Assembly: GCA_023957155.1 (NCBI GenBank)
Contig: JAMLHK010000005.1
Coordinates: 62,001-126,000, forward strand
Origin: Chitinophagaceae bacterium
Lineage (GTDB): Bacteria > Bacteroidota > Bacteroidia > Chitinophagales > Chitinophagaceae
Direction: 5' to 3'
DNA: 64,000 nucleotides
The notes beneath the pieces were generated by a model. That model saw only the letters and a list, made by a program, of their open reading frames with translations. It was not told where the DNA came from and made no database searches. Position numbers and translations under genes: made by a program. The number at the start of each line of letters is the position of its first letter. Position 1 is the first letter of the stretch. Shown piece after piece: positions 3,416-46,046 of the stretch.

Positions 3416-3501
3416 AGTGTAATACTGATTTCCAATAAACTAATTTATAACCAAAACAGCCATTATGATTTAACCTCAGTCTTTTATTCTGCATATCCCA
3501 T

Positions 3502-3588
3502 AAAAACGGGCAGTGATTAGAGCCACTACCCGCTATACGCAGGGATTTGTATACATGATGTTTAGAAACCCCTAACGTTTACAACTAA
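3502..3588 (-). ncRNA. predicted antisense RNA over the susC leader (first locus)
   Basis: Read on the minus strand, a -7 box TACTTTTG (TAnnTTTG consensus) occupies 3601-3594 and ends exactly on the A of the susC start codon. No good -33 TTG is present at the expected spacing. About 60 bp further along the minus strand, inverted arms (3532-3524 and 3515-3507, one G-T pair) are followed by five T residues (3506-3502), as in an intrinsic terminator. The predicted ~87-nt RNA would be complementary to the susC leader. The arrangement matches the DonS-type antisense RNAs known between anti-sigma and susC genes in Bacteroides fragilis. Prediction only; the second locus has the stronger version. Confidence 0.4.
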
Positions 3589-3600
3589 CAAAGCAAAAGT

Positions 3601-6600
3601 ATGAATTTTAAACCTAAAGGGATGGGACTGGTATTTCCGGTCAATTCCTGTATTGTCTTAGCCATGAAACTAACTGTTGCTTTATTGATCATTGCTACTT
3701 TACAGGTAAGTGCCAAAACTTACAGCCAGCAATTAACGATCAATGAAAAAAATCTCACAGTTTCTCATTTCCTGCAACTTATTAAAAAGCAAGCCGGGTA
3801 TAGCTTTTTATATGATGATCTCCAGTTAAAGGATATCCGGATCGCAAGCATTTCGGTAGTGAATGCAGGTGTAGAGCATACGCTGGACGAAGGCTTCAAA
3901 AACCTGCCGTTAGCGTATAAAATATTTAATAAAACAATTGTAGTAAAAAGGGTTAATAATAAGACAGCTTCTCCGCAGGAGCAGGTGGTCCAGCCACCGG
4001 CCGACATTACGATCACTGGTGTTGTAATGAACCCTGACGGTGAGGCATTGAGTAGTGTAAGTGTGATGGTGAAGGGAAGCAATAGCGGAACCACTACCGA
4101 TGGCAATGGCGTATTCTCCATCCAGGTTCCCGACGGCAATGCGGTGCTGGTGTTTTCGTATGTAGGCTACGATAGCCAGGAGATGGTTGTAGGAAACCAG
4201 AGAACGATCAATCTGGTATTAACTCCTTCCGCAGGCTCTTTGGGAGATGTGGTGGTAGTGGCATACGGTAGGCAGAAGAAAATTTCGGTAACAGGCGCTA
4301 TTGCTTCTATTTCAACCAGGGAGATCAAGCAAAGTCCCGCAGCTAATCTGGCGGTTACACTTGCGGGCAGGCTACCTGGCTTAACTGCCTTGCAGAGAAG
4401 CGGCGAGCCCGGGCGCGATGCCACCGCATTATTTTTAAGAGGGATCGGTACGCTCAACGGAACCGCACCTATTATTCTTGTGGATGGCGTGGAACGCGAA
4501 ATGACCTATATAGATCCTAATGAAGTAGAAAATGTAACTATCTTAAAAGATGCTTCATCAACCGCTTTGTTTGGTGTACGCGGTGCTAACGGGGTAATAT
4601 TGGTTACCACTAAAAGAGGAGCGAGCGGCAAGCCAAGCATCGGATTAACGTATGAATACGGGTTGCAGGGATTTACCCGGTCGCCTTCAATGGTCAATTC
4701 GTATGACTGGGCGCGACTGAAGAATGAAGCCTGGTCCAATGATAACCCGGGTGTTGATCCCGATGATCCCGTCAACCAGCCGCCGTATTCAGAATATGCT
4801 TTGGACAGGTTTATGTACCGGGAATATCCTGAAGCGTATCCCAATAATAACTGGCAAAAAATGCTCATCAATGATTATGTGGCGCAGAAGCGGTATAATC
4901 TTAATCTGTCGGGCGGTAGCGAATATGTGCAGTATTTTGTGAATGTTGGCTTTTTAGACCAGGGCGGTCAATGGAAGGTTGACCCCAGCGTTACAGATTA
5001 CGACCCCTCCAGCTTTTTGAGAAGGTATAATTTCCGTTCCAATATTGATGCTAAACTGAACAAGGCGGGTACGTTGAGCACTTTTTTAAATGCAGCAGGC
5101 TATTTTGAAAGGGTAAACTCACCGAATGCCAATACGGATGAAATATTCCGCAGAACGTATGCCTTTTTCCCGGTAGTATTGCCTGGCCCGTTAACGCCCT
5201 CCGGCGAAGTGCTGATAGGCCCGGGTAATTATAACGAGTCGCCCTGGGCAATGATCAACAGGAGCGGTTACCGGCAGGAAACGAGGAATAATATCACCGC
5301 GTCATGGGGGTTAAAGCAGGATTTCGGATTTTTAACGGAAGGGCTTTCTGCCAAATTTATGGCTTCATTTGATACCCGTACCGTTTATTCGCTCACGGCC
5401 GGAAAAGATTACCAGCGCTGGATACAGATTATTGACCCTAACACGCCTAACCATGAAGGGATGGATAGTGTACAGTATACCCGCTTATTCCTGGATAGGG
5501 ATAACACACCATTGAGCATTGGCAGTGGATCTAATTTCCAGTCTTTCTTTAATTTCCAGTTGTCTGTTGACTACAACAGGGTATTCAAACAAAAGCACGC
5601 TTTTACCGGGTTATTGCTGGCACAGCAGGAAACAAGGGTGTTGCCTAACGACAGATTGCCTTATAATCTCAGGGGGATATCTATGCGGGCTGCCTATGCT
5701 TATGATAGTAAATATTTACTGGAATTCAATGCAGGCTATAATGGGTCGGAGCAGTTTGCCAAAGGCAGGCGTTATGGTTTCTTTCCTACCCTGTCCGGAG
5801 GCTGGGTGGTATCTAACGAAGACTTTTTAAAATCCAGCGATATCATTTCATTGCTCAAGATCAGGGCATCTTATGGAAAAGTAGGAAGCGACCGGCTGGG
5901 CGGCAGGCGTTTTTTGTACTTAGATGACATACAACGTATTGGTGGTGGCGGCTTTAGTCCGTCGTTAGGACGTGGCGGCTATATAGCTGAAAACTATATC
6001 GGTAATCCTAATATTCAATGGGAGATAGCTAAAAAAGCCAATATTGGTTTGGAACTGGGCTTTCTGCATAGCGATCTTAATATAATGATTGATGTGTTTA
6101 AAGAAAGAAGGGATAATATTCTGATCAGCCGGCAAACCATTCCTATGGTATATGGTATTGAGCCCGGGCGTATGGCGCCTGTAAATATGGGCGTTGTGGA
6201 AAACAAAGGATACGAGATTGAGCTGAACTATCGTAAAGCGATTAACAGAAACTGGTCGGTGCTTTCAAAGCTCAATTTCAATTTTGCCCGTAATAAAGTA
6301 TTGTTCTCCGATGAATTGCAATATCCTGATGATTATGCTTACCGGTATCGCCAAACAGGGTCTCGTTTGGGGCAGGTATTCGGTTATAAGCTGCGCGACG
6401 GGTATTATGCCAGCTACGAGGAAATTGCTGATGAAGGTTTAACCTATACAGGCTATACGGTCAGGCCCGGTGACTTCAAATATGTGGATACCAATGGCGA
6501 CAAGGTTATTGATGAGCGGGATATGGTTCCCATAGGTTATTCTGCCATTCCGGAATATACCCTGGGAGCGGCTTTTAGCATTACATATAAAAACTTTGAT

Positions 6601-32092: not shown

Positions 32093-35000
32093 ATGCAGTT
32101 AAATTTAGTCAGGCCCCTGTTCCCGGTATTACCGGTTGTATTCGTATTCCTGTTATCATCATGCAATGAAAGAGCCGGCCAGCCCCCGTTCTCTCCCCGT
32201 GAAGCGCTTTCTACTTTTCGTCTCCCGAATGAATATAGAATTGAACTGGCGGCCTCCGAACCGCTCATAAGCGATCCGGTGGAGATTGCGTTTGATGAAG
32301 ATGGTAAGATGTACGTGGTACAGATGGATGATTATCCATCCGACCGTATGGATGACTATGGCGCTGATAATGCACCCCGGAGTAAGATCATGTTGCTTGA
32401 AGATAAGGATGGAGACGGCTTTTTTGAGTCGGGAACGGTGTTTGCAGAAGGATTACATTACGCAAACGGGGTAATGCCCTGGAAAGGGGGAGTGCTGATA
32501 GCCTCTGCACCTGATATTTTATTTTTAAAAGATACCGATGGTGATGGAAAAGCAGATGAAAAAAAAGTACTGCTTACCGGCTTTGCGGTAACGAATCCGC
32601 AGTTAAGAATGAGCAGCCTGCGGTATGGATTAGATAACTGGGTTTATGCCGCATATTCCCATGCAGGCGGCGGCAAATGGCGCGAAGAATTTAAAGGAAA
32701 AGGCAGCCCGCTGTATTTTCCTGATAAGCCCGATCAGCAACTGCCTCCATTGCTTCCCGGAACAAATATCCGGTTTATGCCGGGTGAATATAAAGCAGAG
32801 GCGTCCGGCGGTATGTCTCAGTTTGGTTTGTCTTTTGACAGGTCGGGAAACCAGTTTACCGTATGGAATAATGTGCATATCCGGCATGTGGTAATTAATG
32901 AAAAGTATGTATCCAATAATCCTTTTCTGAGCGTTGGAGCTACTATGGCCGATATCTCAGATCATGGAAATGCAGCGCCGGTATATGCGATCACCCGGGA
33001 TATGCTCAATCTTCATGAATCTGAGATGGGGCATTTTACTTCTGCGTGCGGGATAACGGAGTATACCGGCGGCCTTTTTAAAGGGAAGTATGCGAATGCT
33101 TCTTTTGTGTGTGAGCCGGTTTCTAATATCGTACATGCCGACATTCTCGTTCCCAATGGTCCTACGTTCACGGCCGAAAGGGCGGAAAAGGAAAAGGAGT
33201 TCCTGGCCTCGACCGATAGTTGGTTTCGCCCGGTGAATTTAACCACCGGCCCGGACGGGGCTTTATATGTGGTAGATTTTTACAGAAAATTAGTGGAGCA
33301 TCCCGACTGGCTGGCGATGGCCGACTCAAGTGGTTTTTATACACACGCCGGTAAAATAAAAGAATCCGATTTCCTGGAAGGCAATGACCGGGGAAGGATT
33401 TACAGGGTTGTTCCGAAAGATTTTAAGACGGATAAAAAGAGCGCAGCAAAGTTGAGCAATGCCGATATACAGACATTGGTAAATAATCTGAATGATCCCG
33501 GTCTTTGGTGGAGGACGAATGCACAGCGATTGCTGGTAGACCGCAAAGATGAAAGTGCCGTTCCCTTAGTCAGGGAACTGTTATCCCGAAACATTTCGGC
33601 TGAAGGAAAGATACATGCGTTATGGACATTAGAGGGGTTGGGCGCGTTGCCCGATAGCATATTGGAAAATGCTTTTCAGGATGCCGGCCCCATAGTGAGG
33701 AAGCAGGCGATCTTATTAGCAGAAAAAAGAATAGAGAATAGCAGTATGCTTGAAAAAGTGATCCGGGCTTCATCAGATCCGGATCCTTATGTTCAGTTTC
33801 AGGCAGTGCTGACCTTAAGTAATGTTACGGGATCGTACCCGGAGATTTTTCCCGCGCTGTACCAGGTCATCTCTGCCCATATCGGGGATCCCTGGTTCCA
33901 GATTGCCGTTTTATTGGGCGCGGGTGAGCATGCGATTCAGTGGTTTGAAGCCTGTAAAGATTTTGATGCAAAAGATAGTTCGGCAGAAACGGGAAAGAAA
34001 GAATTTTTAAAAAGGATTACCTCGATAACCGGGGCCAGGTATAAACAAAATGAATTATCCTCCTTGGTGAAAATAATATCTGCGGTAAAGGATACGGGAG
34101 TGGTAATTGCCGGACTGCAGGGTATAGAGCGCGGCATGAAACGTAATATCAATCCTGTTCAACTCACTCCGGAAGGGCAGCAAGGACTGATGGCGTTGAT
34201 CTCAGACCGGCCGCGCAATGTAAGAGCCGCTGCTATGGGAATGGCCGCCCGGTTACAGTTGACGGCTTCCGGGGGGCTGACCCGTATTATCAGCCAATCA
34301 AAGCATATAGTGTCAGACACTACCCTGGACCCCGGAGACCGGGTGCTGGCTGTTCAGGCTTTGGGACTGGATCCCGGCGGGCTGCCTTTTACTGTATTGG
34401 AAGCCCTACTTCAAGGCAGCCAGCCTTTGGATATTCAACTGGCTGTGGTAAATGTTCTTTTAAGCAGCCGGCAGAATACTGCTACGGAAATACTGTTGAA
34501 TAAATGGAGCTTGTTTAATCCCCGGATACATACCATCGTGGAAACGGGATTTCTGGCAAGAAAGGACCGATCGGAATCCTTAATGAACGCTATCGGATCC
34601 GGAAAGATAAAACCTGCGTGGATAAGCAGAAATACGCAAAACCGGCTATTAACCTTTTCAGACAGCACGATAAGGGAAACGGCAAAAAAAGTATTTAAGG
34701 ACGTTGGCAGCAGAAGCCGGGAGCAGGTTATCCATGACTATAATGTATCTACTACAGGTAATGGTGATCCGGCTAATGGCAAAGCGGTATTCAGCCGGGC
34801 TTGCGGCGTTTGCCATTCCTTAGAGGGGGTAGGTGTGAATTTTGGCCCGGATTTACATAGCGTTAGTCATCAGACAAAGATCAATCTCCTGACCATGATC
34901 TTAGATCCCAATCATGATATTGCTCCGGGTTACGAGGGATATACGATTGAAACATCAGACGGCGGGACTTTTGTGGGTATTATTGAAAGTGAAAACAGTT

Positions 35001-35167
35001 CCGGTATCGTCCTGAAGAGCCAGGGCGGAGTAGTACATACCATTTTGAAGAGTGATATCAGGTCTATGTCACCCCTGCCCGTTTCTTTGATGCCCGAAGA
35101 GCTGGAGTCCTCTGTTAATAAAGAAGAGATGGCGGATCTGCTGGAGTATATCAAAACATTGAAGTAA
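32093..35167 (+). CDS. heme-binding beta-propeller/HEAT-repeat lipoprotein (PVC-type), CGVCH
   Basis: 1024 residues from ATG 32093 (TTG 32084 adds three residues). Lipobox LSSC gives Cys24. The propeller domain (~45-430) contains LEDKDGDGFFE, KDTDGDGKADE, and DSWFRPVNLTTGPDGALYVVDFY. HEAT repeats occupy ~450-820 (RELLSRNISAEGKIHALWTLEGL and similar). The cytochrome c module has CGVCH at 904-908 and ends with the SLMPEEL region that probably supplies the distal Met. It is the second of three paralogous architectures in the window; the other two are at 17359 and 47835. A role in periplasmic sugar oxidation or electron transfer is inferred. Confidence 0.88.
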   Translation: MQLNLVRPLFPVLPVVFVFLLSSCNERAGQPPFSPREALSTFRLPNEYRIELAASEPLISDPVEIAFDEDGKMYVVQMDDYPSDRMDDYGADNAPRSKIMLLEDKDGDGFFESGTVFAEGLHYANGVMPWKGGVLIASAPDILFLKDTDGDGKADEKKVLLTGFAVTNPQLRMSSLRYGLDNWVYAAYSHAGGGKWREEFKGKGSPLYFPDKPDQQLPPLLPGTNIRFMPGEYKAEASGGMSQFGLSFDRSGNQFTVWNNVHIRHVVINEKYVSNNPFLSVGATMADISDHGNAAPVYAITRDMLNLHESEMGHFTSACGITEYTGGLFKGKYANASFVCEPVSNIVHADILVPNGPTFTAERAEKEKEFLASTDSWFRPVNLTTGPDGALYVVDFYRKLVEHPDWLAMADSSGFYTHAGKIKESDFLEGNDRGRIYRVVPKDFKTDKKSAAKLSNADIQTLVNNLNDPGLWWRTNAQRLLVDRKDESAVPLVRELLSRNISAEGKIHALWTLEGLGALPDSILENAFQDAGPIVRKQAILLAEKRIENSSMLEKVIRASSDPDPYVQFQAVLTLSNVTGSYPEIFPALYQVISAHIGDPWFQIAVLLGAGEHAIQWFEACKDFDAKDSSAETGKKEFLKRITSITGARYKQNELSSLVKIISAVKDTGVVIAGLQGIERGMKRNINPVQLTPEGQQGLMALISDRPRNVRAAAMGMAARLQLTASGGLTRIISQSKHIVSDTTLDPGDRVLAVQALGLDPGGLPFTVLEALLQGSQPLDIQLAVVNVLLSSRQNTATEILLNKWSLFNPRIHTIVETGFLARKDRSESLMNAIGSGKIKPAWISRNTQNRLLTFSDSTIRETAKKVFKDVGSRSREQVIHDYNVSTTGNGDPANGKAVFSRACGVCHSLEGVGVNFGPDLHSVSHQTKINLLTMILDPNHDIAPGYEGYTIETSDGGTFVGIIESENSSGIVLKSQGGVVHTILKSDIRSMSPLPVSLMPEELESSVNKEEMADLLEYIKTLK

Positions 35168-35336
35168 AGAAGAGGGGTACATGGTCGTTCCCTACCGATG
35201 AGAAAGGTAATGAGGGTATTTTAGTTTTCTCTTACGGATTTTCTATTGTAATTATTAAAAAAGTTATTTCTTATCTTTATAAGGGCTACAGGTGTATTTT
35301 GTATCGTAGATGCATAACATATCTCTGCATTGTTTT

Positions 35337-35939
35337 ATGAAACCGACTTTCCGCAATGAGCAACAGGTGGTGAGAGAGATGATAAATAATGACATCTCTG
35401 CGTTTGATGCTGTGTATTGGAAATACCATAAGGCGGTTTACCTGAATATTATTAAACTGGTAAAAGATCCTGAGGTTTCAAAAGATATCTTACAGGAAGT
35501 ATTCGTTGCGCTCTGGATAAAAAGACAAACCCTGAATCCTGAGATGGGTATTGGAGGATGGCTTTTTACTACAAGCTATCATAAATCTGTTGACTACCTG
35601 AAAATTACACAGACTGCCTCCCGGTTTACCCGTGAACAGCATATAATCGAAGTATGGGTTGACCCCGGTAAAGAAGAAGAAAAGGAAAGCCGGTTACAAT
35701 TGATTCAGCAGGCGGTAAGTAATTTGTCTCCCCAAAAAAGAAAAGTATTTGAGTTGTGCAAGTATAAAGGGAAGACGTATGAAGAAACGGCAAGAGAACT
35801 GAATATCTCAAAATATACCGTCAAAGAATATCTTTCCGAATCCCTCTCTTATATCAAAGAATACATTCATGGGCAATCTACGCAGTCATTGATTGACTGT
35901 TTACTTATTTTATTTGCCCTATACCCCCCCGTTATCTGA
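35337..35939 (+). CDS. ECF-family RNA polymerase sigma factor (second locus)
   Basis: About 200 residues from ATG 35337 (ATG 35310 adds a poorly conserved nine-residue leader). Region 2 is at ~15-60 (YWKYHKAVYLNIIKLVKDPEVS, DILQEVFVALW). Region 4 is at ~115-170 (LSPQKRKVFELCKYKGKTYEETARELNISKYTVKEYL). The tail SLIDCLLILFALYPPVI is hydrophobic, as in the sigma at 1586. FecR follows after 95 bp. Expected targets are the SusCD genes downstream. Confidence 0.92.
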   Translation: MKPTFRNEQQVVREMINNDISAFDAVYWKYHKAVYLNIIKLVKDPEVSKDILQEVFVALWIKRQTLNPEMGIGGWLFTTSYHKSVDYLKITQTASRFTREQHIIEVWVDPGKEEEKESRLQLIQQAVSNLSPQKRKVFELCKYKGKTYEETARELNISKYTVKEYLSESLSYIKEYIHGQSTQSLIDCLLILFALYPPVI

Positions 35940-36034
35940 ATATTCCGGTATTTAGTTATAGGAGATGTACGGGGGATGAATCCTCTCATTGGTACACTGC
36001 TCAAATAATAATACTAAAAATCGGGAAAAAAGAA

Positions 36035-37225
36035 ATGCAGGATATAAGAAGTAGTCTGATGCAGTTACTGGCCAAAGAAGACTGGACTACAGAGGATAGA
36101 AACCGGGTGTTAAGCTATCTGGAAAATACGGATGAAGAGGAATTGAAATCCATACTTCAGCAACAATTTGAGGAAAGCCTGGCTCATGATGCAGGAGAAA
36201 GCGCTGTACCTGATCAGCCGGAGAGGTTGTTAAGATCTATTCATAGGAGGGTCGGCATTACGCCGCAGCAGCGAAGCGCTGTGATCGTTAAGTTATTGAA
36301 GCGGGGATTAGCCGCGGCTTCGGTCGTACTTGTGGTTTTGGCGTTAAGTTATTTTATGTTCAGGGTATATGACCATCGGCAGCTTGCCGGCTTCCCCAAG
36401 AATGAGGAAGTGAAATTCCGTGATGATGTAAATCCCGGAACAGATAAGGCAACATTGATGCTTGATGACGGAGCTATTATATCGCTTGACGAGGCTGAAA
36501 ATGGAACGCTTGCGCACGAAAGCGGCGCGGTGGTGATCAAGTCGGGAGGGAAGCTGAACTATCATACTAAAGATGATGCACCCGGCAAGATAGCGTACAA
36601 TACCATTACCACGCCGCGGGGCGGACAATATATGGTTGAGTTGTCGGATGGTACGGGGGTTTGGCTGAATGCAGCTTCCTCTATAAAATTCCCCGCATCT
36701 TTTTCAGGAAAAGAAAGAGAGGTGGAAGTAACCGGTGAAGTATATTTTGAAGTAGCAAAGAACAAGGCAATGCCTTTTATTGTAAAAACGGGGGATGTGC
36801 GGGTACGGGTATTGGGTACTCATTTTAATATTATGGCATATCAGGATGAGCCGGTGTTTAAAACAACTTTATTGGAGGGAGCAGTGGAGGTATATAAAGG
36901 AGATAATGCGATAAAGTTAGCTCCGGGGGAGCAATGGCAGCTTTCACCAAACGGAACGGCCCGGGTAATAAGCGGGGTGGATGTAACAGAAGTAGTGGCA
37001 TGGAAGAACGGGTTTTTTGATTTTGAGGGATTAGATTTCGAAACGATTGCCAGGCAGTTATCCCGGTGGTATAATGTGGAAGTCGTATCCAACCGGAAAA
37101 TTGACGACCTCTTTTATGCGAAAATACCAAGAGATACTAAGTTGTCTGTAGTATTAAAAGCATTGGAATATACCGATAAAGTACATTTTCAGATAGAAGG
37201 GGCAAAAATTATTGTATTGCCGTAA
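36035..37225 (+). CDS. FecR-family anti-sigma factor (second locus)
   Basis: A 396-residue inner-membrane protein. The cytoplasmic N-domain covers ~1-85, one transmembrane helix ~90-110 (GLAAASVVLVVLALSYFMF), the periplasmic FecR domain ~185-285 (TPRGGQYMVELSDGTGVWLNA, GEVYFEV, VLGTHFNIMAY) and a DUF4974-like C-terminus ~325-396 (WYNVEVVSNR). It shares motif order with the FecR at 2258. By family it binds the sigma factor encoded upstream and receives the receptor signal. Confidence 0.92.
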   Translation: MQDIRSSLMQLLAKEDWTTEDRNRVLSYLENTDEEELKSILQQQFEESLAHDAGESAVPDQPERLLRSIHRRVGITPQQRSAVIVKLLKRGLAAASVVLVVLALSYFMFRVYDHRQLAGFPKNEEVKFRDDVNPGTDKATLMLDDGAIISLDEAENGTLAHESGAVVIKSGGKLNYHTKDDAPGKIAYNTITTPRGGQYMVELSDGTGVWLNAASSIKFPASFSGKEREVEVTGEVYFEVAKNKAMPFIVKTGDVRVRVLGTHFNIMAYQDEPVFKTTLLEGAVEVYKGDNAIKLAPGEQWQLSPNGTARVISGVDVTEVVAWKNGFFDFEGLDFETIARQLSRWYNVEVVSNRKIDDLFYAKIPRDTKLSVVLKALEYTDKVHFQIEGAKIIVLP

Positions 37226-37246
37226 AAAATAAACCGGGATTACCTT

Positions 37247-37342
37247 AAAAAAATACCGGAAGCGCTTGCAACACTTCCGGCAGGTATTGGGGTTAATCCA
37301 ACGCAAAACGACTCAATTGTTTTTTATTGTTTAACCAAAACC
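37247..37342 (-). ncRNA. predicted antisense RNA over the susC leader (second locus)
   Basis: On the minus strand, TTG (37379-37377), a 20-bp spacer and TAAATTTG (37356-37349) form a consensus Bacteroidota promoter whose -7 box ends on the A of the susC start codon. Transcription would begin near 37342. It would stop at a hairpin with perfect 7-bp arms CCGGAAG (37280-37274) / CTTCCGG (37262-37256) followed by T-A and seven T residues (37253-37247). The ~96-nt RNA would be fully complementary to the susC leader and could block its translation. Position and size match the DonS class of cis-antisense RNAs in Bacteroides PULs. No transcript data exist here; prediction only. Confidence 0.55.
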
Positions 37343-37355
37343 AAAGTACAAATTT

Positions 37356-40300
37356 ATGCGTTTAATTGATCATTGCCAATTCATACCATTGGCGCAAAAG
37401 GGTTTATATAAAACGCTTTTGATTATGAACCTGACAACTGTTTTTCTGTTTGTGCTGAGTGTAAGCGTCAGCGCAAAAGTATCCTCTCAAACGGTAAGCC
37501 TGTCTGAAACCAATGTACCTCTTGAGAAGGTATTTAAGGAAATCAACAGGCAAACCGGTTATACGTTTGTTTATACCCGGAGTCTTTTAAAGAAAAGCAG
37601 GAATATCAGCATTAACGTACAGGACATTCCTGTGGAAAGGTCGCTGGATATTTGCTTTAAAGATCAGCCCCTGACCTATACCATTCTAAACATGATGGTA
37701 GTTATCAAAGAAAGAGAAAGAGCATATACCGCTTACAACACGGAAGAAGCTGCGCAACCTGTTACGGCTGTAAACATTACCGGGAAAGTAACCGATGAAA
37801 AAGGGCTACCCCTGGAAGGCGCATCCATTTTGGTAAAAGGCACCAGTAATGGGGTAAAATCAGATGCCGGAGGTGTTTTTTCCATAGAAGCAGATCCCAA
37901 TTCAATTTTAGTTATTTCGTACATCGGGTTTGAACCCACTGAGGTTCGGGTGAATAACCGCACCGTGCTGTCTGTGCAACTGAAGCCTTCTTTTGCAACA
38001 GGAGAAGAGGTGGTAATTGGTTATAGCGTTCAAAAGAAAGTAAACCTCACCGGCGCGGTATCCAGCATCAACTTTGAGTCTAAGGAAACCGAGTCACGCC
38101 CTTTAGTAAATGTATCTTCTGCCCTTCAGGGCCTGGCGGCGGGAGCGCTGGTAGTACAGTCTACAGGTAATCCTCAAAATAATAACGCCGATATCACGAT
38201 CAGGGGGGTGGGAACCTTAAACTCAGGCTCCGAGCCGCTGGTAATTATTGACGGGCAGCCTGGCGATATGAACACCATAAACCCCATAGATGTGGCTTCT
38301 GTTTCTATATTAAAAGATGCGGCTTCCTCAGCTATATACGGGTCCCGCGCCGCTAACGGCGTTATTCTGATAACGACCAAAAGCGGTAGTAACTCTAACG
38401 GAAAGATCACGTTCAACTACAACGGGTATGCAGGCACCACAACGCCAACCAAGGTTTTCGATATTATTTCCTATACTCCTGATTATATGGAATTAGTTAA
38501 CCGGATTCAAAGAAACTCCGGTGTTGCAGAAGCCTTTACGCCTGAACGTATTGCAGAATGGGCGCAGAAGTCAAAAACAGATCCCATTCTTTATCCCAAT
38601 ACCGACTGGTATAGTGTAATCATGAAACCGAATCTCCTCACCAGCCATACCATTTCCGCCCGCGGAGGTAATGAAAAGCTTAATATATACAGTGCAGTCG
38701 GTTATCAGGACAACAACGGTGTGGTGCTGAAAACGGGGGTAAAAAGATTTAATTTCAGAAATAATTTAAGCTATAGGATTAACAACTGGCTCAAGCTTGG
38801 TAATATTATTACCGGCAATTTCCAGCAAAACCCGCCCGATATTACCAATAGCTTATTTATTGTTTATCCTAATCCCAGTATTACGCCAATATATAACGGA
38901 ATATACGGAACTGCAATGTCCGGAGGGCTTGATACCCAGGCGGGCAATCTTTTAGAAGAGATTGACTCCCAGAAAGGAGAGACCAAAAGGCAAAATTATA
39001 CCGGTAAGATATATGCCATTCTTACACCCGTTACCGGCTTGAATATTACCGGTAGCTATTTTTTGGATAAGAGCGTTTCCGATGGCTGGGGAAGCGCTGT
39101 CAGCCTGCCTCGTAAAAATTTTCAAACTGATGTTTTTTTAAGTACGGGATCGGCGTATGGCTCTGCTATTTACAGGAACTTTGGCAGGACGGACAGGAAA
39201 GTGGTAGATATTTACGCGGATTATCAAAGATCGCTCGGGTCACACGCTGTAAAGCTGCTTGCGGGCTTTAACCAGGAACAATGGGATAATACCTATTTCT
39301 CCGCCTCAAAATTAGGACTTATCAGCAATGACCTGAATACGCTGGATGCTGCGGCATTCCAGCCTCAGACTTCAGGTAGTGGTCAGTCATACAGAACGCG
39401 ATCCTATTTCGGAAGGCTGAATTACAGCTTCAACGACCGGTACCTGTTTGAAGCGAATATCCGTACAGACGGTTCATCCCGGTTCAGCCCGGAAAACCGG
39501 TGGGGAACTTTCCCTTCATTTTCTGCCGGTTGGATAGCATCGAAAGAGGAGTTTTGGGATGCGTTGGGCAAAACGGTAGATTTCTTTAAGATCCGGGCAT
39601 CATGGGGACGACTGGGTAATAACGGGATCGGGAATTATGCCTGGCAGGATGTGTATGGACCTTCTAACTACAGCTTTAATGGGGCACAGGTTCAGGGACT
39701 GGCACCCGGCTATCTCGTCAATTCAGATATTACCTGGGAAACAACGGATGTAACGAACATTGGTGTAGATATTGACCTGCTGAATAAATTTTCCGTAACG
39801 GTTGATTACTACGATAAATTTACCCACGGTATCCTTGCCGATATGCCGATACCCGGCGTTAATGGCCCGCTGGATCCCCCTTTGGTTAACGCTGCAGAAG
39901 TGCGGAACAAGGGTATTGAGGTGGATGCCAAGTTTCATGAAAGGATCGGGAAATTAAGTATTGCAGCCGGCATATTAGCTGCATATAATAACAATAAGAT
40001 CGTAAAATACAAAGGGCCGGATGTGATAGAAAATCAGGGTAGCGGAGCATCAGCCTGGGCAGAAGGAAAGCCGATCGGCATATTCTGGGTAAGAGAGGTA
40101 GATCATATCGTGCAGGACCAAAAGGAAATTGATCAGCTTGTTAATGCGGGTTATACATGGGAAGGCCCGGTACCCGGCCCCGGCGATTTTCTTTACAAGG
40201 ATGCCAATAATGATAAAATATTTCAAACGGATGAAACCGATATGGTTTTAAAGGGCAATCCGATTCCCGTATATAATTATGCGGTTAATTTAAACCTGGC

Positions 40301-40787
40301 TTATGGAGGTTTTGATTTTTATGTGATGGCCTATGGTGTTGCCAAATGGACCAAGCAGTTGGGAGGATACAGCGAGGGGCTGAATGCCATGGTAGGAGGA
40401 TATGGTTATGCCAAGAGGTGGCTGAATTCCTGGACTCCGGAAAACAAAAGCACTACCATCCCCAAGATTTATTTGAATGATGGCAGGAACAGCGGGGATA
40501 ATGATTACTTTCTGAGCCCGGGGGATTACTTCAGGATAAAAAGTATTCAGTTAGGATATACGCTTCCCCAGCATCTTGTTCGCAGAGCTAAAGTAGACCG
40601 GGTAAGGTTTTTCGTGAACTTTGAAAGTTATTTTCAATGGACAAGATACCGGGGTATGGATCCGGAAACCAATAACCTGGCAGCGGCAAATTCAGCTGAC
40701 GGAGGAGGCGCGTCTTCTTCTCCCAATTACACCAATACTTACCCGTTGTTTAAAACAGCTTCATTTGGCGTGAACGTTTCCTTTTAA
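37356..40787 (+). CDS. SusC/RagA-family TonB-dependent outer-membrane receptor (second locus)
   Basis: An 1143-residue receptor. The hydrophobic signal segment is at ~22-40 with cleavage near SAKVSS. The STN domain is at ~45-115, the carboxypeptidase-regulatory-like domain at ~137-205 (SILVKGTSNGVKSDAGGVFSI), and the plug at ~215-345 (LQGLAAGALVVQ, IRGVGTLNSGSEPLVIIDG, ILKDAASSAIYGSRAANGVI). The barrel ends in GVNVSF. ATG 37356 is kept, although 37425 would also leave a signal segment. SusD follows after 21 bp. It probably signals to FecR (36035) through STN. The substrate is not apparent. Confidence 0.95.
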   Translation: MRLIDHCQFIPLAQKGLYKTLLIMNLTTVFLFVLSVSVSAKVSSQTVSLSETNVPLEKVFKEINRQTGYTFVYTRSLLKKSRNISINVQDIPVERSLDICFKDQPLTYTILNMMVVIKERERAYTAYNTEEAAQPVTAVNITGKVTDEKGLPLEGASILVKGTSNGVKSDAGGVFSIEADPNSILVISYIGFEPTEVRVNNRTVLSVQLKPSFATGEEVVIGYSVQKKVNLTGAVSSINFESKETESRPLVNVSSALQGLAAGALVVQSTGNPQNNNADITIRGVGTLNSGSEPLVIIDGQPGDMNTINPIDVASVSILKDAASSAIYGSRAANGVILITTKSGSNSNGKITFNYNGYAGTTTPTKVFDIISYTPDYMELVNRIQRNSGVAEAFTPERIAEWAQKSKTDPILYPNTDWYSVIMKPNLLTSHTISARGGNEKLNIYSAVGYQDNNGVVLKTGVKRFNFRNNLSYRINNWLKLGNIITGNFQQNPPDITNSLFIVYPNPSITPIYNGIYGTAMSGGLDTQAGNLLEEIDSQKGETKRQNYTGKIYAILTPVTGLNITGSYFLDKSVSDGWGSAVSLPRKNFQTDVFLSTGSAYGSAIYRNFGRTDRKVVDIYADYQRSLGSHAVKLLAGFNQEQWDNTYFSASKLGLISNDLNTLDAAAFQPQTSGSGQSYRTRSYFGRLNYSFNDRYLFEANIRTDGSSRFSPENRWGTFPSFSAGWIASKEEFWDALGKTVDFFKIRASWGRLGNNGIGNYAWQDVYGPSNYSFNGAQVQGLAPGYLVNSDITWETTDVTNIGVDIDLLNKFSVTVDYYDKFTHGILADMPIPGVNGPLDPPLVNAAEVRNKGIEVDAKFHERIGKLSIAAGILAAYNNNKIVKYKGPDVIENQGSGASAWAEGKPIGIFWVREVDHIVQDQKEIDQLVNAGYTWEGPVPGPGDFLYKDANNDKIFQTDETDMVLKGNPIPVYNYAVNLNLAYGGFDFYVMAYGVAKWTKQLGGYSEGLNAMVGGYGYAKRWLNSWTPENKSTTIPKIYLNDGRNSGDNDYFLSPGDYFRIKSIQLGYTLPQHLVRRAKVDRVRFFVNFESYFQWTRYRGMDPETNNLAAANSADGGGASSSPNYTNTYPLFKTASFGVNVSF

Positions 40788-40808
40788 TCTTGATTAAATT
40801 ATTATAGT

Positions 40809-42455
40809 ATGAAAAAAATGATTTTAATTGGATTGATCCTCTCCTGTATAACGTCTTGTAATAAAGATTTTTTTGATACAAGACCACAGGCGGCAATTTC
40901 CAGCTCTATTCTCTGGAGCTCCGATTCTTATGCAGTAATGGCGGTAAATGGTATTTACGGTACCTTTTTAGGAGAGCGTTATTTTGGTGATTATACCTGG
41001 AGATATGGAATGTGGGGACCGGACGGGTTGGATTACGGAGGTAGTACGATGGAGCAGGGAAGGATGGATGCCGGCACCCGGGACATGTGGCGGAAATGGG
41101 CTTATATGTATGGACTGATCAGGCTTTGTAATGATGCGATTGTCAACATTGAAGATAACCCTAATCTTACGCCCGCAACGGCCCAGCGGTTGGTTGGTGA
41201 GGCCAAGTTCATACGCGGATTCTGTTATTTCAACTTATGGGCTTCCTTTGGAAGCATTATCATCGTAGATAAGCCCATCCCCATTGAAGAGACCTATACA
41301 TTAAAGCAAAACAGCCAGGAAGAGATAAAGCAGTTTTTGGTTAAAGATTTTACGGATGCTATAGCGGCATTACCGGTAGATTATAATGCTTCACTGTCTA
41401 ACAGGGGAAGGGCAACAAAGGGAGCCGCCCAGGCTATGCTGGGAAAAACCTACCTGTATGCCCAGGAATGGGGAAAGGCTGCGGAGGAATTGGGAAAGCT
41501 GATGCAGGCCCCGTATACTTATGGACTGCCTGCTGATTATGCCAGTGTTTTTGATCCGGATAATGAATACAACGAAGAAATTATATGGGATATGGAGTGT
41601 ATTGATTATCCCGGGTTGGGAAGTGAACAGGATTTCCGGTATGGGGGGAGGTCGCTGCCGGTATCCGGCTGGTCACAAACGGTTGCCAGCTGGGCGGTTG
41701 TAAATTCTTATACCAACCAGGACGGTTCGGCAATTGATATTTCAGACATCCCTAAAAGGGAAAATTATGCCAGCGAATATGATTACGGCTTAGTGCTGAT
41801 TCCCTGGTACCAGCAGAAGTATAAAAATGCAGATACCCGCCTGCATGATAATATTATTATGCCGGGGGATACCATATTAGGCAATGGTAACCTGCAGTAT
41901 ATGATGAAGTGGCCGTTCGGGGATCATGCAAATGACAATCCCTATCCGGCTTACCAGCTGGATAATTCCGACAAAGCCTCTTTCGGGTGGAGAAAGTTTG
42001 TTATGGACAATAAGCATGCTCACGTAAACAGGGAAGATTCACCGCTGAATATCATATTCATACGGTTTGCCGATGTGCTCCTGCAATGGGCAGAGGCTAA
42101 AAATGAAGCAGATGGCCCGTCTGCGGAGATCTTTAATGTAATCAACAAGGTCAGGGACAGGGGGCATGTTCCCCATCTTTCGGGATTAAGCAAAGATAAT
42201 TTGCGGCAGGAGATCCGCTTAGAGAGAATGCGGGAACTACCGGGTGAAGGCCAGCTGTTCTTTGATGTACGGAGATGGAAAACCGCAGCTACCACCGACC
42301 CGATATTTGGACTGAACAAGGTGGAATATGATTTCACCATGCGTCCTTATTTCACCAGTGTATTCCCTGAAAAATATTATCTGTTCCCTATTCCGCAGGA
42401 TGAAATGATCCTGAATAAGAACCTTGTACAAAATCCGGGATATAGCGGCAATTAA
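40809..42455 (+). CDS. SusD/RagB-family glycan-binding lipoprotein (second locus)
   Basis: A 548-residue lipoprotein with lipobox ITSC (Cys17). It has SusD-typical motifs LVGEAKFIRGFCYFNLWASFG and GRATKGAAQAMLGKTYLYAQEW in the TPR-like half, and ADVLLQWAEAKNEADGP, INKVRDRGHVP and EIRLERMRELPGEGQLFFDVRRWK near the C-terminus. The final FPIPQDEMILNKNLVQNPGY is typical. It pairs with the SusC 21 bp upstream. A strong hairpin follows the gene at 42493-42520. Confidence 0.95.
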   Translation: MKKMILIGLILSCITSCNKDFFDTRPQAAISSSILWSSDSYAVMAVNGIYGTFLGERYFGDYTWRYGMWGPDGLDYGGSTMEQGRMDAGTRDMWRKWAYMYGLIRLCNDAIVNIEDNPNLTPATAQRLVGEAKFIRGFCYFNLWASFGSIIIVDKPIPIEETYTLKQNSQEEIKQFLVKDFTDAIAALPVDYNASLSNRGRATKGAAQAMLGKTYLYAQEWGKAAEELGKLMQAPYTYGLPADYASVFDPDNEYNEEIIWDMECIDYPGLGSEQDFRYGGRSLPVSGWSQTVASWAVVNSYTNQDGSAIDISDIPKRENYASEYDYGLVLIPWYQQKYKNADTRLHDNIIMPGDTILGNGNLQYMMKWPFGDHANDNPYPAYQLDNSDKASFGWRKFVMDNKHAHVNREDSPLNIIFIRFADVLLQWAEAKNEADGPSAEIFNVINKVRDRGHVPHLSGLSKDNLRQEIRLERMRELPGEGQLFFDVRRWKTAATTDPIFGLNKVEYDFTMRPYFTSVFPEKYYLFPIPQDEMILNKNLVQNPGYSGN

Positions 42456-42492
42456 AACCGGCGCATAAAGATAAATTAGCGATATTGTAATT

Positions 42493-42520
42493 CAGATGAG
42501 GTCCTTCCGGGCCTCGTCTG
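42493..42520 (+). terminator. 12-bp stem hairpin after the second susCD pair
   Basis: CAGATGAGGTCC (42493-42504), loop TTCC, GGGCCTCGTCTG (42509-42520): a 12-bp stem with two G-T pairs and a tetraloop. No T-run follows, so it may protect the 3' end of susCD mRNA or cause partial termination before the next gene, not act as a classical terminator. Confidence 0.5.
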
Positions 42521-42567
42521 CATATTACGACCAGGTGGTTATTTTTTAGAAATAACGATCTGATACG

Positions 42568-42612
42568 AAACGAATTTTTATCTTAGATTAAAGTTCTGCC
42601 GTATAATGCCGG
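42568..42612 (+). repeat. 45-bp conserved intergenic sequence, copy 2
   Basis: 40 of 45 bases match 13101-13145, with a perfect 20-bp block at the left end. It contains TATCTTAG (42579-42586), a -7-like box, but no TTG at the -33 distance. It lies 51-70 bp upstream of the first dimethylformamidase-like gene and probably carries its promoter. Confidence 0.65.
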
Positions 42613-42680
42613 CGTGATCAGCGGCCTGTATTCAGGCTGATAAGATTACCGGCATTAGATATATGCACGTTGAAAATAGT

Positions 42681-44243
42681 ATGATGAAAAAGGAATCTGA
42701 TAATCTGACTCGCCGTGAATTGCTTAAAGAGGCTGCGCAAATGGGCCTGCTTGGTACAATGACCACTTCTTTGAAGGAAGCGGCTCCTTTAAATTTACCG
42801 AAGAAGGGGCTGATTGTAAACGAGAATCGGCATGAGGGGACAACGGACTGGCAATTGACTTATGTAAGATCGGAAAATTACCGCTCGGAAAGTATTGAAG
42901 GCTACTGCTCACATACAAGTGTAAGCGCCGGTGAAGTTTTAGATGTTTTTGTGAGTACGGCCTCACCTTCAAAAGTAACCATCCGGATCTATCGCATGGG
43001 ATATTATGGAGGTAAAGGCGGGCGCCATATCACTTCATTAGGACCTTTTGATGTACAACCTCAGCCTACTCCGCCGGTTGGAGAACACCGGCTCAGGGAA
43101 TGTCGCTGGAAGAGTACGGTTAAAATAAAGATCCCGAAGGAGTGGGTTAGCGGAGTATATCTCGGTAAGCTGTCCTGTGATACCCACCGTTATGAAAGCT
43201 ATATCATTTTTGTGGTAAAAGATCAACGGCAGGCTGATATCCTTGTACAGACAAGTGATAACACCTGGCAGGCATACAACAAATGGCCGGATAATTATTC
43301 TTTGTATGAGAGCGATCCTCCCCAGCGTTCCTGGAATGCCACTACATGGATAAGTTGCGACCGGCCTTATGGATGGTACCCGCAGGTGGTTGAGCAGGCG
43401 CTGTCCCAGGGTTCAGGTGAGTTTTTGTTGTGGGAATATCCTTTCTGCTTCTGGCTTGAAAAGCACGGGTATGATGTTACCTATTGCGCAAATGCGGATA
43501 CGCATACAAACGATGCAAAATTAGACCGGGTAAAATGTTTCTTTTCTGTAGGGCATGATGAATATTGGAGCATAGAGATGTATCAAAATATTCAATCTGC
43601 CATACAAAAGGGGTTAAATGTGGGGTTCCTGGCCGGTGATACCGTCACTTCGGTAGTGCCTTTACATCAAATGAATAGCGAAGGGCGTCAGCACCGGTTA
43701 ATACGTCGTACCGGAATGTTTGGCGGCATCCCGCCGGAAGACAGGAAACTATACGAAACCATGAGCTCGGGGTGGGGATACGATTTATTACATGAACACT
43801 GGGAAAAACATGGACCGGCGCAGGCCCTGTTAGTGGGCGGAAGGTCTACCTATCCCGGAAATGGTTCGGGAGACTGGATCATAACAAATGAAAAACACTG
43901 GATATTTGAGGGAACCGGGATGAAAAACGGCGACTGCGTTCCCGGGTTGGTAGGATGGGAATTTGCCTCCGATCCGCCTTTGCATGTACCGGGGTTTGAA
44001 GTGCTTGCTTCAGGCGAGGTGAGGCGGGGCGATGATTCTACTTCTTCCTGGGCGGCAACAATTTATCCCGGGCCAAAAGGAAATTGGGTTTTTAATGCGG
44101 CAACAATTTATTGGTCATTGGGATTATCTCAGCCTCCGGGCTTTAATTATCCTTTTTCTCATCTTGGACGGCCGCATGGCCCGGATGAGCGGGTTCAGAA
44201 AATTATGTCAAATTTCTTAAAGCGTTGTGGTGTTTCTATGTGA
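42681..44243 (+). CDS. N,N-dimethylformamidase-large-subunit-like secreted protein (copy 1)
   Basis: About 520 residues from ATG 42681; ATG 42663 would add six residues, but alignment with the paralogue at 46170 favours the later start. The N-terminus has a Tat-type LTRRELLKEAAQ. An N-terminal beta domain (~45-165; YVRSENYRSESIEGYCS, IRIYRMGYYGGKGG) is followed by the dimethylformamidase large-subunit C-terminal fold (~180-500) with QTSDNTWQAYNKWPDNYSLY, FSVGHDEYWS and GPKGNWVFNAATIYW. The enzyme family hydrolyses amides, but most secreted relatives are uncharacterised. In this locus an amide-linked or N-acyl sugar substrate is conceivable. Linked to SusD by 225 bp containing a hairpin and a probable promoter. 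Confidence 0.82.
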   Translation: MMKKESDNLTRRELLKEAAQMGLLGTMTTSLKEAAPLNLPKKGLIVNENRHEGTTDWQLTYVRSENYRSESIEGYCSHTSVSAGEVLDVFVSTASPSKVTIRIYRMGYYGGKGGRHITSLGPFDVQPQPTPPVGEHRLRECRWKSTVKIKIPKEWVSGVYLGKLSCDTHRYESYIIFVVKDQRQADILVQTSDNTWQAYNKWPDNYSLYESDPPQRSWNATTWISCDRPYGWYPQVVEQALSQGSGEFLLWEYPFCFWLEKHGYDVTYCANADTHTNDAKLDRVKCFFSVGHDEYWSIEMYQNIQSAIQKGLNVGFLAGDTVTSVVPLHQMNSEGRQHRLIRRTGMFGGIPPEDRKLYETMSSGWGYDLLHEHWEKHGPAQALLVGGRSTYPGNGSGDWIITNEKHWIFEGTGMKNGDCVPGLVGWEFASDPPLHVPGFEVLASGEVRRGDDSTSSWAATIYPGPKGNWVFNAATIYWSLGLSQPPGFNYPFSHLGRPHGPDERVQKIMSNFLKRCGVSM

Positions 44244-44264
44244 TCATTTTATCAACCCGTAAAT

Positions 44265-45614
44265 ATGCAACTGTCATCCCGCTCTTTTTTTTGTTTTGTT
44301 GTATTATCTCTGCTACCTGTTTTTTGTGATGCTCAATCTATACGTGCCGGTATCTTTACGGTAGATGCTTCGCCGGCGCTTGGTACCCCGGTAGCCTATG
44401 CCAAAACACGTTCGGTTACGGATTCGCTGAGTGTACGGGGTATTGTCATCCTTTCCGATCAGAAGCCCGTTGTTTTATGTGCGGTGGACTGGATAGGAAT
44501 AGCCAATGAAGGTCTTGATGTGTGGAAGGAACAACTGGCAAATGCGGCCGGTACAACGGTTGACCGTGTTTCGGTACATTCATTACATCAGCATGATGCG
44601 CCGCGATGCGATTTCACCGTGGAACGTATTTTAACACAATATGGCATGGGGGGCACCCGCTTTGAAAATGCGTTCTACCTCAAAGTACTTCAGCAGGCAG
44701 CCCTTGCTGTGGAAAAAGCGGTAAAGAATGCGCAGCCGGTTACACATATCGGTTTTGGAGAAGCTAAAGTTGAAAAAGTAGCATCCAATCGAAGGATATT
44801 AGGAAAGGATGGTAAAGTGGCTATCGTCCGGTACAGTAGTGCAACCGATTCCGCCGCAATAGCTGCTCCTGAAGGCGTAATTGATCCCTGGCTCAAATGT
44901 GTCAGCTTTTGGAATAAAGAAAAACCGGTTGCGGTGCTTACTTTCTATGCTACCCATCCGCAGAGCTATTATGGCACAGGGGATGTAAGCTGCGATTTTG
45001 TAGGTATAGGCAGAAATGCTTTTGAGAAAGCGATTGGAGTACACAGTACTCACTTCAATGGCGCAGGCGGTAATATAGCAGCAGGGAAATACAATAACGG
45101 TTCTCCCGAAATGCGCCCCGTATTGGCTGCGCGGATGGAAGCCGGTATGAAAAAAGCATGGGCGGCAACAAAGAAAATACCGGTGTCAGCGAAAGATATG
45201 ACCTGGAAAAGTATCCCGGTTAGTCTTCCGCTTGCGCATGACCTGGTCATAGATGAACTGAAAGCCAGTATGGAAGATGAAAAATTGACTCCTAATGAAA
45301 AGTATGATGTAGCTATCCGGCTTGCCTGGGCAGAGCGAACGGTACAGGGGAAGAACGTTACGGTGTCTGCCCTGCGGATGGGGAAAACCTGGTTATTGAA
45401 TCTGCCGGGAGAAACCTTCGTAGAATATCAACTGGCAGCCAAAGCCATGAGGCCGGGCGATCAGGTATGCACAGCGGCCTATGAAGAATATGGTCCGCGA
45501 TATATCGGAACAAAAATAGCCTACGCGCAGGGAGGATATGAGGTTACCCAGTCTTTTGTATCTCCGGATGTGGAAGAGGTATTGATGAACGCCATCAGGG
45601 CGGTATTGAAATAG
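44265..45614 (+). CDS. secreted neutral-ceramidase-like protein (second of two)
   Basis: A 449-residue protein with a Sec signal (FFCFVVLSLLPVFCDAQ, cleavage near residue 24). The fold markers are AGIFTVDASPALGTP, VLCAVDWIGIANEG, a metal-site-like SVHSLHQHDAP, and VAVLTFYATHPQSYYG. At the nucleophile position of ceramidases it reads GAGGNIAAG, again without the expected Ser. It shares architecture with 29190-30719 but is diverged. It sits between two dimethylformamidase-like genes (22 bp after the first), which suggests joint action on an amide- or ester-decorated substrate. Confidence 0.78.
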   Translation: MQLSSRSFFCFVVLSLLPVFCDAQSIRAGIFTVDASPALGTPVAYAKTRSVTDSLSVRGIVILSDQKPVVLCAVDWIGIANEGLDVWKEQLANAAGTTVDRVSVHSLHQHDAPRCDFTVERILTQYGMGGTRFENAFYLKVLQQAALAVEKAVKNAQPVTHIGFGEAKVEKVASNRRILGKDGKVAIVRYSSATDSAAIAAPEGVIDPWLKCVSFWNKEKPVAVLTFYATHPQSYYGTGDVSCDFVGIGRNAFEKAIGVHSTHFNGAGGNIAAGKYNNGSPEMRPVLAARMEAGMKKAWAATKKIPVSAKDMTWKSIPVSLPLAHDLVIDELKASMEDEKLTPNEKYDVAIRLAWAERTVQGKNVTVSALRMGKTWLLNLPGETFVEYQLAAKAMRPGDQVCTAAYEEYGPRYIGTKIAYAQGGYEVTQSFVSPDVEEVLMNAIRAVLK

Positions 45615-45687
45615 AGCAACAGATGATCGTGTTATGTTAACCGTAATATGCCGCATCATTTTGTGAATAGTGAATAGTGATGCATTT

Positions 45688-46046
45688 CAAATTTTCGCTT
45701 CATACGCGGTATCCCGGTCGGTGAGACACCACGGCCGTCAACTTAAGCCCGGAGGGCTTGAACCGTACCTGCGGCAGGCAGGTTTGAATAGCCCCCAACA
45801 AAGATGGGGGACAAAATGTGGATGTTTTTGTTGAACCCCTACGGGGTTCAATGTAAAATTTGGCAAATATACCACCGGCTACATCCCCAACAGAGTTGGG
45901 GACTATTCTCAAACCCCATTCGGGGTGTTTGAGTGCATAGGCTCCTTAAGTTGACGGATATGGTGAGACACCGACCGGTAGCGGGTTCTACAGGTGGTGA
46001 CAACACCCGCAACGGCAACTCCGATGTTGGTGTTATCACCAACATC
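45688..46046. repeat. dispersed palindromic repeat, interrupted copy
   Basis: With 45731-45961 and one 11-bp duplicate removed, this sequence aligns over ~80 bp with the reverse complement of 58421-58515. Shared marks are CAAATTTTCGC at the left end, the 23-bp palindrome CCGGTCGGTG-AGA-CACCGACCGG (reconstituted across the insertion), GGTAGCG, TCTACAGG and CACCCGC. The right end carries another perfect hairpin, GATGTTGGTG-TTAT-CACCAACATC (46023-46046). Confidence 0.7.
45731..45961. mobile_element. MITE-like 231-bp insertion with 13-bp inverted termini
   Basis: Perfect inverted ends CCGTCAACTTAAG (45735-45747) and CTTAAGTTGACGG (45945-45957). Outside them GGTGAGACACC is present on both sides (45720-45730 and 45962-45972), as a target duplication would be; the uninterrupted copy at 58.4 kb has it only once. 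Inside are at least five hairpins: AAGCCC/GGGCTT (45745-45759), CCCCCA/TGGGGG (45792-45810), TTGAACCCC/GGGGTTCAA (45831-45851), TCCCCAAC/GTTGGGGA (45884-45902) and CTCAAA-CCCC/GGGG-TTTGAG (45908-45933). No ORF. It looks non-autonomous, or REP-like and moved by an enzyme encoded elsewhere. Confidence 0.65.

Follow-up and report, generated by a model that had tools for sequence, protein, structure and literature searches.

RNAs of the DonS family are 78 to 128 nt long, lie divergent to susC, and have a negative effect on susC expression (PMC7366714); in 2025, DonS was described as repressing its PUL by an unknown mechanism (PMC11697453). In Bacteroides thetaiotaomicron, 32 PUL-associated antisense RNAs (asRNAs) are reported. 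The asRNA-PUL pairs are both anti-correlated and positively correlated, and since positively correlated pairs exist, repression is not universal; the same source calls for functional work on PUL asRNAs (PMC10994844).

Here we analyze the gap between fecR and susC in a 64,000-nucleotide stretch of DNA from a Chitinophagaceae bacterium (the window). A preliminary description of this sequence had proposed a DonS-like antisense RNA at this susC gene, and its statement about DonS agrees with the three papers above on the divergent position and the negative effect. Its prediction was right as an observation, and the RNA is very probably of the DonS type in kind, a reading supported, at the level of sequence, by conservation, compensatory base pairs, and strand-specific folding. 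We consider it likely that the housekeeping sigma factor drives synthesis of a cis-antisense RNA of the DonS type, which keeps susC expression low for as long as the ECF sigma factor has not been released.

RESULTS

A predicted antisense RNA between fecR and susC

The elements noted earlier on the minus strand (a TTG, a 20-bp spacer, TAAATTTG, a hairpin, and seven T residues) were all found in place (Table 1). The promoter reads TTG-N20-TAAATTTG, and the -7 box touches the A of the susC ATG as had been claimed, its first T facing position 37356. The terminator reads CCGGAAG...CTTCCGG followed by seven T on the minus strand, with the T tract at 37253-37247. It had been taken for a perfect 7-bp hairpin; the hairpin is present, and its stem is longer, with 13 pairs (G-T allowed) at 37282-37254. 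The earlier placement of all elements inside the gap holds for the RNA and its terminator and not for the promoter, which lies mostly within susC codons 1 to 8. When both strands of positions 34000-46000 were scanned, this hairpin had the most pairs among 16 terminator-like sites; the scan is not significant by itself, because shuffles averaged 11.7 sites (sd 3.6). In the second copy of the element the box again lies on the ATG, and the terminator is at -95.

Table 1. Features of the focal locus and of the second copy of the element (window coordinates)
Feature	Position	Strand	Basis
ECF-type sigma factor gene	35310..35939	+	Pfam
fecR, anti-sigma (FecR + FecR_C); stop ends at 37225	36035..37225	+	Pfam
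susC (STN, CarbopepD_reg_2, Plug, barrel), presumed target	37356..40787	+	Pfam; TIGR04056, 785.6 bits
susD	40809..42455	+	Pfam
-33-like TTG of the predicted antisense promoter, within susC codon 8	37377..37379	-	Sequence; TTG spacing in relatives
-7 box TAAATTTG, overlapping the A of the susC start codon	37349..37356	-	Sequence; box conserved
Predicted antisense RNA, ~96 to 99 nt	37247..37345	-	Start inferred from box
Stem P1, 5' arm GGTTAA	37331..37336	-	Fold; P1 covariation
Stem P1, 3' arm TTAACC	37291..37296	-	Fold; P1 covariation
Terminator stem-loop, 13 pairs	37254..37282	-	Hairpin scan; covariation helix 2, 96.1% of cells paired
Terminator T7 tract	37247..37253	-	Sequence
Second copy of the element, first FecR-SusC gap; susC ATG at 3601	3498..3627	-	Both features; R1 E = 0.0011

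Searching positions 35000-38500 against Rfam 15 left the gap without a match and gave one sub-threshold match elsewhere (plus strand, 36365-36428); on 10 related loci only tRNA was matched, at E up to 0.5. As no curated covariance model matched, we rejected a known Rfam family for the antisense RNA.

Behind the focal SusCD pair, positions 42663-45614 encode a DMFA2_C protein and a second protein with a weak resemblance to neutral ceramidases (26.1 bits against a cut-off of 32.1). These downstream genes hint that the substrate is perhaps an amide or a lipid and not a glycan.

Box and terminator recur at FecR-linked susC genes

FecR loci were gathered irrespective of the hairpin: 21 FecR genes of the window's own genome, 30 loci that were the best matches of a search in relatives (many more FecR matches existed, and two of the 30 belong to the own genome), and 19 loci from named contigs, including Paraflavisolibacter caeni (Chitinophagaceae), Chitinophaga, Pedobacter, and Mucilaginibacter (Sphingobacteriaceae). 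The 71 places were reduced to 59 gaps by removing three duplicates (L021, L043, L059), two places without a next ORF (L034, L063), and seven gaps shorter than 80 bp; near-copies (L054-L058) remain in the set, as does a second place from L061. At every kept gap (59/59), SusC is matched by the next ORF.

An exact TAnnTTTG, the published consensus of the -7 box (PMC7366714), lies on the susC ATG in 39 of the 59 gaps (20 are without the exact box), and a minus-strand terminator lies 70 to 145 bp upstream of susC in 49 (10 are without one by the rule used). The preliminary description had staked its reading on conservation of both minus-strand elements in orthologous gaps, and 34/59 gaps contain both (11/19 in the own genome, 23/40 in others), while a mirrored plus-strand terminator is found in 3/59. 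Dinucleotide-shuffled gaps (n = 1180) contained the box in 18, the terminator in 27, and both in 2 cases. Among background ORFs of 200 aa or more (n = 214) the corresponding counts were 2, 6, and 2, and the two ORFs with both elements are those at the window's own two FecR-SusC gaps. The 24 own-genome SusC genes without FecR that score over the TIGR04056 cut-off had neither box nor terminator.

For a second sample, SusC loci of two relatives and two Bacteroidales genomes were ranked by score, and the top 30 were taken. Its 17 SusC genes with FecR, three of them overlapping earlier loci, had the box in 9, the terminator in 12, and both in 8 cases; the 11 assessable SusC genes without FecR had neither. 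Two of 13 rows (L174 and L186), with only 88 and 157 bases upstream, were not counted as FecR-free. Over the two samples, neither element was present at 35/35 SusC genes without FecR (24 + 11). The element is confined to FecR-linked SusC in the sampled genomes; exceptions elsewhere are L125 and L128, where it stands beside a SusC gene without detected FecR.

The element keeps its distance from the susC start codon

The distance from the terminator to the susC ATG is narrow (median, 96.5; IQR, 94 to 103; range, 79 to 136), whereas that from the fecR stop to the terminator runs from 12 to 345. At L022, a close relative with a FecR 55% identical, the fecR side measures 345 bp versus 28 in the window, and the terminator-to-ATG distance nonetheless stays at 98 bp. 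At L068 a 161-aa ORF follows FecR, and the element precedes the next long ORF, which is SusC-like at its start. Hence, the element travels with susC and not with fecR. The contig bearing L068 (CAJCIQ010000066.1) is labelled Beijerinckiaceae; because it bears FecR, a SusC-like ORF, and the element, the label appears to be wrong and the contig to come from Bacteroidota.

Upstream of the exact box, TTG peaks at spacers of 19 (5 rows) and 20 (10 rows), together 15/39 rows, and occurs 0 or 1 times at every other spacer between 10 and 30. With the box on the ATG, this spacing places the predicted promoter within susC codons 1 to 8. The hydrophobic signal core begins at a median residue of 20 in FecR-linked SusC and of 7 in other SusC, a correlation with FecR linkage, as the two groups may differ otherwise. 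The predicted RNAs have a median length of 93.5 nt, and 48/50 fall between 78 and 128 nt.

The predicted antisense RNA has a conserved and covarying fold

Folding was done on the 50 rows in which a terminator was recognized when the loop rule was relaxed slightly, and z values were computed on bodies with the terminator removed. Single-sequence folds showed a 5' stem-loop, P1, in which a 5' arm of the GUUUGGGUUAA type pairs with a UUAACCxGAAC-type stretch just before the terminator. The antisense bodies had a mean z of -2.28, with 28/50 below -2. P1 had at least 10 long-range pairs in 37/50 bodies versus 175/1000 shuffles and at least 5 in 48/50 versus 454/1000; in the window itself, P1 is comparatively weak (z, -1.09). 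We also considered a fixed recognition loop, [AG]TC-N3-8-GATT, which was present in 15/50 bodies versus 1.9 expected; it marks a subset only, to which the window's RNA does not belong.

An initial alignment of 30 sequences (A1) misaligned the hairpins, and the models R1 and R2 were seeded on 16 chosen sequences (A2), for which reason they lean to CCGG-type terminators. The own genome supplied four of the 16 seeds; as the first seed is the window's copy, the E-value of that copy carries no evidential weight. The 10 P1 pairs of R2 were taken from the single-sequence folds. In A2, which is a MAFFT alignment unfitted to structure, 95.0% of the terminator cells are paired and four terminator pairs show double changes versus 1.8 in shuffles; the number of terminator pair types was not above shuffles (9 versus 9.6). 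RNAalifold recovered 6 P1 pairs on A2.

For a larger alignment (A4), 87 loci were searched; 76 of them contributed 78 model-aligned rows, and 11 had no R2 match. Left out beforehand were two short gaps (L006, L015), L063, duplicates or near-copies (L021, L043, L055, L058, L059), and five loci with matches near neither FecR nor SusC (L126, L129, L130, L131, L137). Being fitted to the structure, A4 is biased toward it, and two of its rows (L051 and L004, both plus strand) are from the wrong strand; 88.4% of its cells are paired, and all 20 modelled pairs change on both sides. There were 240 double-change cells versus 60.7 in shuffles (0/500 shuffles as high), and slid structures used as controls gave 21 to 57. 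Compensatory changes affect 10/10 P1 pairs.

The element occurs in several families of Bacteroidota

R1 gave 16 matches in the own genome. The best 12, with E values up to 0.0042, are without exception antisense and within FecR-SusC gaps, and 4 of them were seeds; the remaining four matches are the focal hairpin read on its reverse strand, one site in another FecR gap, and two sites near neither gene. Across the phylum, where up to 11 candidates were scored per genome, 23/296 genomes, the own genome included, matched at an E of 0.01. At least 33 matches outside the own genome were among those listed, and 28 were fetched: 23 lie antisense between FecR and SusC, two lie beside SusC without detected FecR (L125, L128), and three lie near neither (L126, L129, L137). 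The 23 FecR-SusC matches span four families (f1, which is the own family, f18, f20, and f25). Weak model matches off FecR and SusC homologues (L126, L129, L130, L131, L137) may be due to chance or represent other carriers. Within the own family, R2 matched 55/117 genomes, the own one included, at an E of 0.001, and two relatives have at least 27 and at least 28 matches among the best 28 candidates scored per genome.

Genomes presumed to be Bacteroidales were chosen by a Bacteroidales-1 RNA over its cut-off. Their 30 FecR loci left 28 with a next ORF and 23 with a gap of at least 80 bp, which contained the box in 11, the terminator in 14, both in 11, and a plus-strand terminator in one case. 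R2 was weak on seven of these genomes: one (G424) gave eight matches at E up to 1, six of them beside FecR by coordinates, and four others gave 12 matches, all at E 0.01 or above.

Sense-strand signals upstream of the hairpin

Sense mini-ORFs (ATG, at most eight more codons, and a stop) were found between the fecR stop and the antisense terminator in 32/45 gaps versus 17.8 in shuffles, and in 13/13 versus 6.5 in the Bacteroidales rows. Such mini-ORFs occur in related loci, e.g., L023-L025, L054-L058, and L140-L168, and are absent from the window's gap. The 6-mers CTATGA and GCCTAT are enriched upstream of the hairpin, most strongly in Bacteroidales, and neither is in the window's gap; GCCTATGA is found 31 to 38 bp upstream of the hairpin in 6/13 Bacteroidales rows. 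The sense signal could be either a leader peptide or a susC promoter element.

DISCUSSION

Proposed mechanism and alternatives

We hypothesize that the housekeeping sigma factor recognizes TTG-N19/20-TAnnTTTG on the strand opposite the first eight susC codons. The resulting RNA of 90 to 100 nt would start 11 to 14 nt upstream of the susC ATG, head away from susC through the leader, fold its 5' stem-loop P1, and stop at the intrinsic terminator short of fecR. While FecR holds the ECF sigma factor, the constitutively made RNA and its transcription would suppress leaky expression of susC: the RNA, with a 5' arm complementary to the A-rich leader immediately before the ATG, would cover this leader, which aids translation in the phylum (PMC7366714), and the antisense polymerase would traverse it. 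When a substrate frees the ECF sigma factor, strong sense transcription would presumably overrun the antisense promoter. We infer here that the element is transcribed, which sigma factor is used, that susC is repressed, and which step is blocked.

Because the promoter, the two-hairpin RNA, and the stop signal recur in several families, the antisense control described in gut Bacteroides is probably of early origin and wide distribution. With moderate confidence, we regard the element as a family of structured antisense RNAs that is old, extends across the phylum, and resides within ECF/FecR-controlled susC loci. Its promoter in the first codons may explain the ~20 residues before the signal core, and the 5' stem-loop would act as an RNA, by leader pairing or protein binding, and not solely through transcription.

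The RNA could instead be inert, with antisense transcription damping the susC promoter by promoter occlusion and polymerase collision and with the terminator merely protecting fecR. The predicted promoter on the start codon, from which transcription would cross the leader, suits this account, as does the transcriptional level at which DonS is said to act, reportedly according to Cao in 2016. However, P1 lies outside the terminator, is kept by compensatory changes in all of its pairs (10/10), and is stabler than shuffles on the antisense strand, and pure interference needs no such structure. We therefore consider an inert RNA unlikely; since P1 is conserved and interference alone would not need it, the RNA appears to matter beyond the act of its transcription.

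It is very unlikely that the conserved structure serves the sense strand, where it would form a leader or attenuator of the susC mRNA. The same DNA would belong to the susC leader if the sense start lay upstream of the hairpin, where sense mini-ORFs are enriched, but folding is strand specific: the sense strand of the same bodies had a mean z of -0.45 (6/50 below -2) versus -2.28 for the antisense strand, which folded more stably in 48/50. Moreover, the antisense folds contain 1006 pairs, of which 177 are G-U pairs that turn into A-C in the sense strand, and the mirrored plus-strand terminator is rare (3/59). The strand-specific folding thus disfavors a sense-strand attenuator.

Coincidence between a stray hairpin and the composition of Bacteroidota translation starts, where adenines at -3, -6, and -11 to -15 favor translation (PMC7366714), is hardly credible and was rejected on the shuffle, non-FecR SusC, and background controls: A-richness at -10 to -15 and -6 may be partly translational, yet the letters fixed in the 59 gaps are C-7 (48), A-5 (57), A-4 (57), and T-1 (55) with A at -3 in only 16, background starts (n = 175) have no such bias (A-5, 61; A-4, 66), and the exact box is missing from the 24 own and 11 other SusC genes without FecR.

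On our preferred reading, the RNA is predicted in Chitinophagaceae, Sphingobacteriaceae, and further families, and the start and leader of such SusC genes would be shaped by a signal on the opposite strand. If the element is indeed a phylum-wide family of structured RNAs, genomes with dozens of such transporters would carry a matching set of dedicated RNA brakes. The covariance model, the narrow geometry, and the covarying 5' stem make the DonS-type mechanism directly testable.

Comparison with known systems

In searches of open-access papers other than the founding DonS paper, we found no report of the RNA in Chitinophagaceae, Sphingobacteriaceae, or further families and none of its start-codon placement or covarying structure. 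GibS of B. thetaiotaomicron, for which pairing near the start codons of metabolic mRNAs was predicted and tested by EMSA (PMC7366714), is likewise a small RNA of Bacteroidota; it is trans-acting and has an unstructured 5' part, whereas the present RNA is cis-encoded and has a structured one. The FopS family of B. thetaiotaomicron, from a paper on PUL regulation, is another multi-copy small RNA family, set beside ours by its description only; unlike the present RNA, 9/14 of its members are intergenic, and 4/14 are antisense (PMC11697453).

The closest relatives are DonS of B. fragilis and BTnc009, -055, -077, -123, and -249 of B. thetaiotaomicron, which are likewise antisense, divergent to susC, and located in PULs. 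The predicted length of the window's RNA (96 to 99 nt) falls inside the published range of 78 to 128 nt, and a promoter with a housekeeping-type -7 box and an intrinsic terminator are, on our reading of the class, also shared. The FecR gaps of Bacteroidales place the element alike, DonS itself not having been identified among them. Unlike these Bacteroides RNAs, the predicted RNA occurs well outside Bacteroidales, and it has two covarying stems, a box whose position on the ATG is fixed, and an association with FecR-linked SusC, none of which is stated for Bacteroides asRNAs in the available text of the sources. The predicted RNA is very probably of a kind known from Bacteroides; new are the range over which it occurs, its position at the start codon, and the covariation of its structure.
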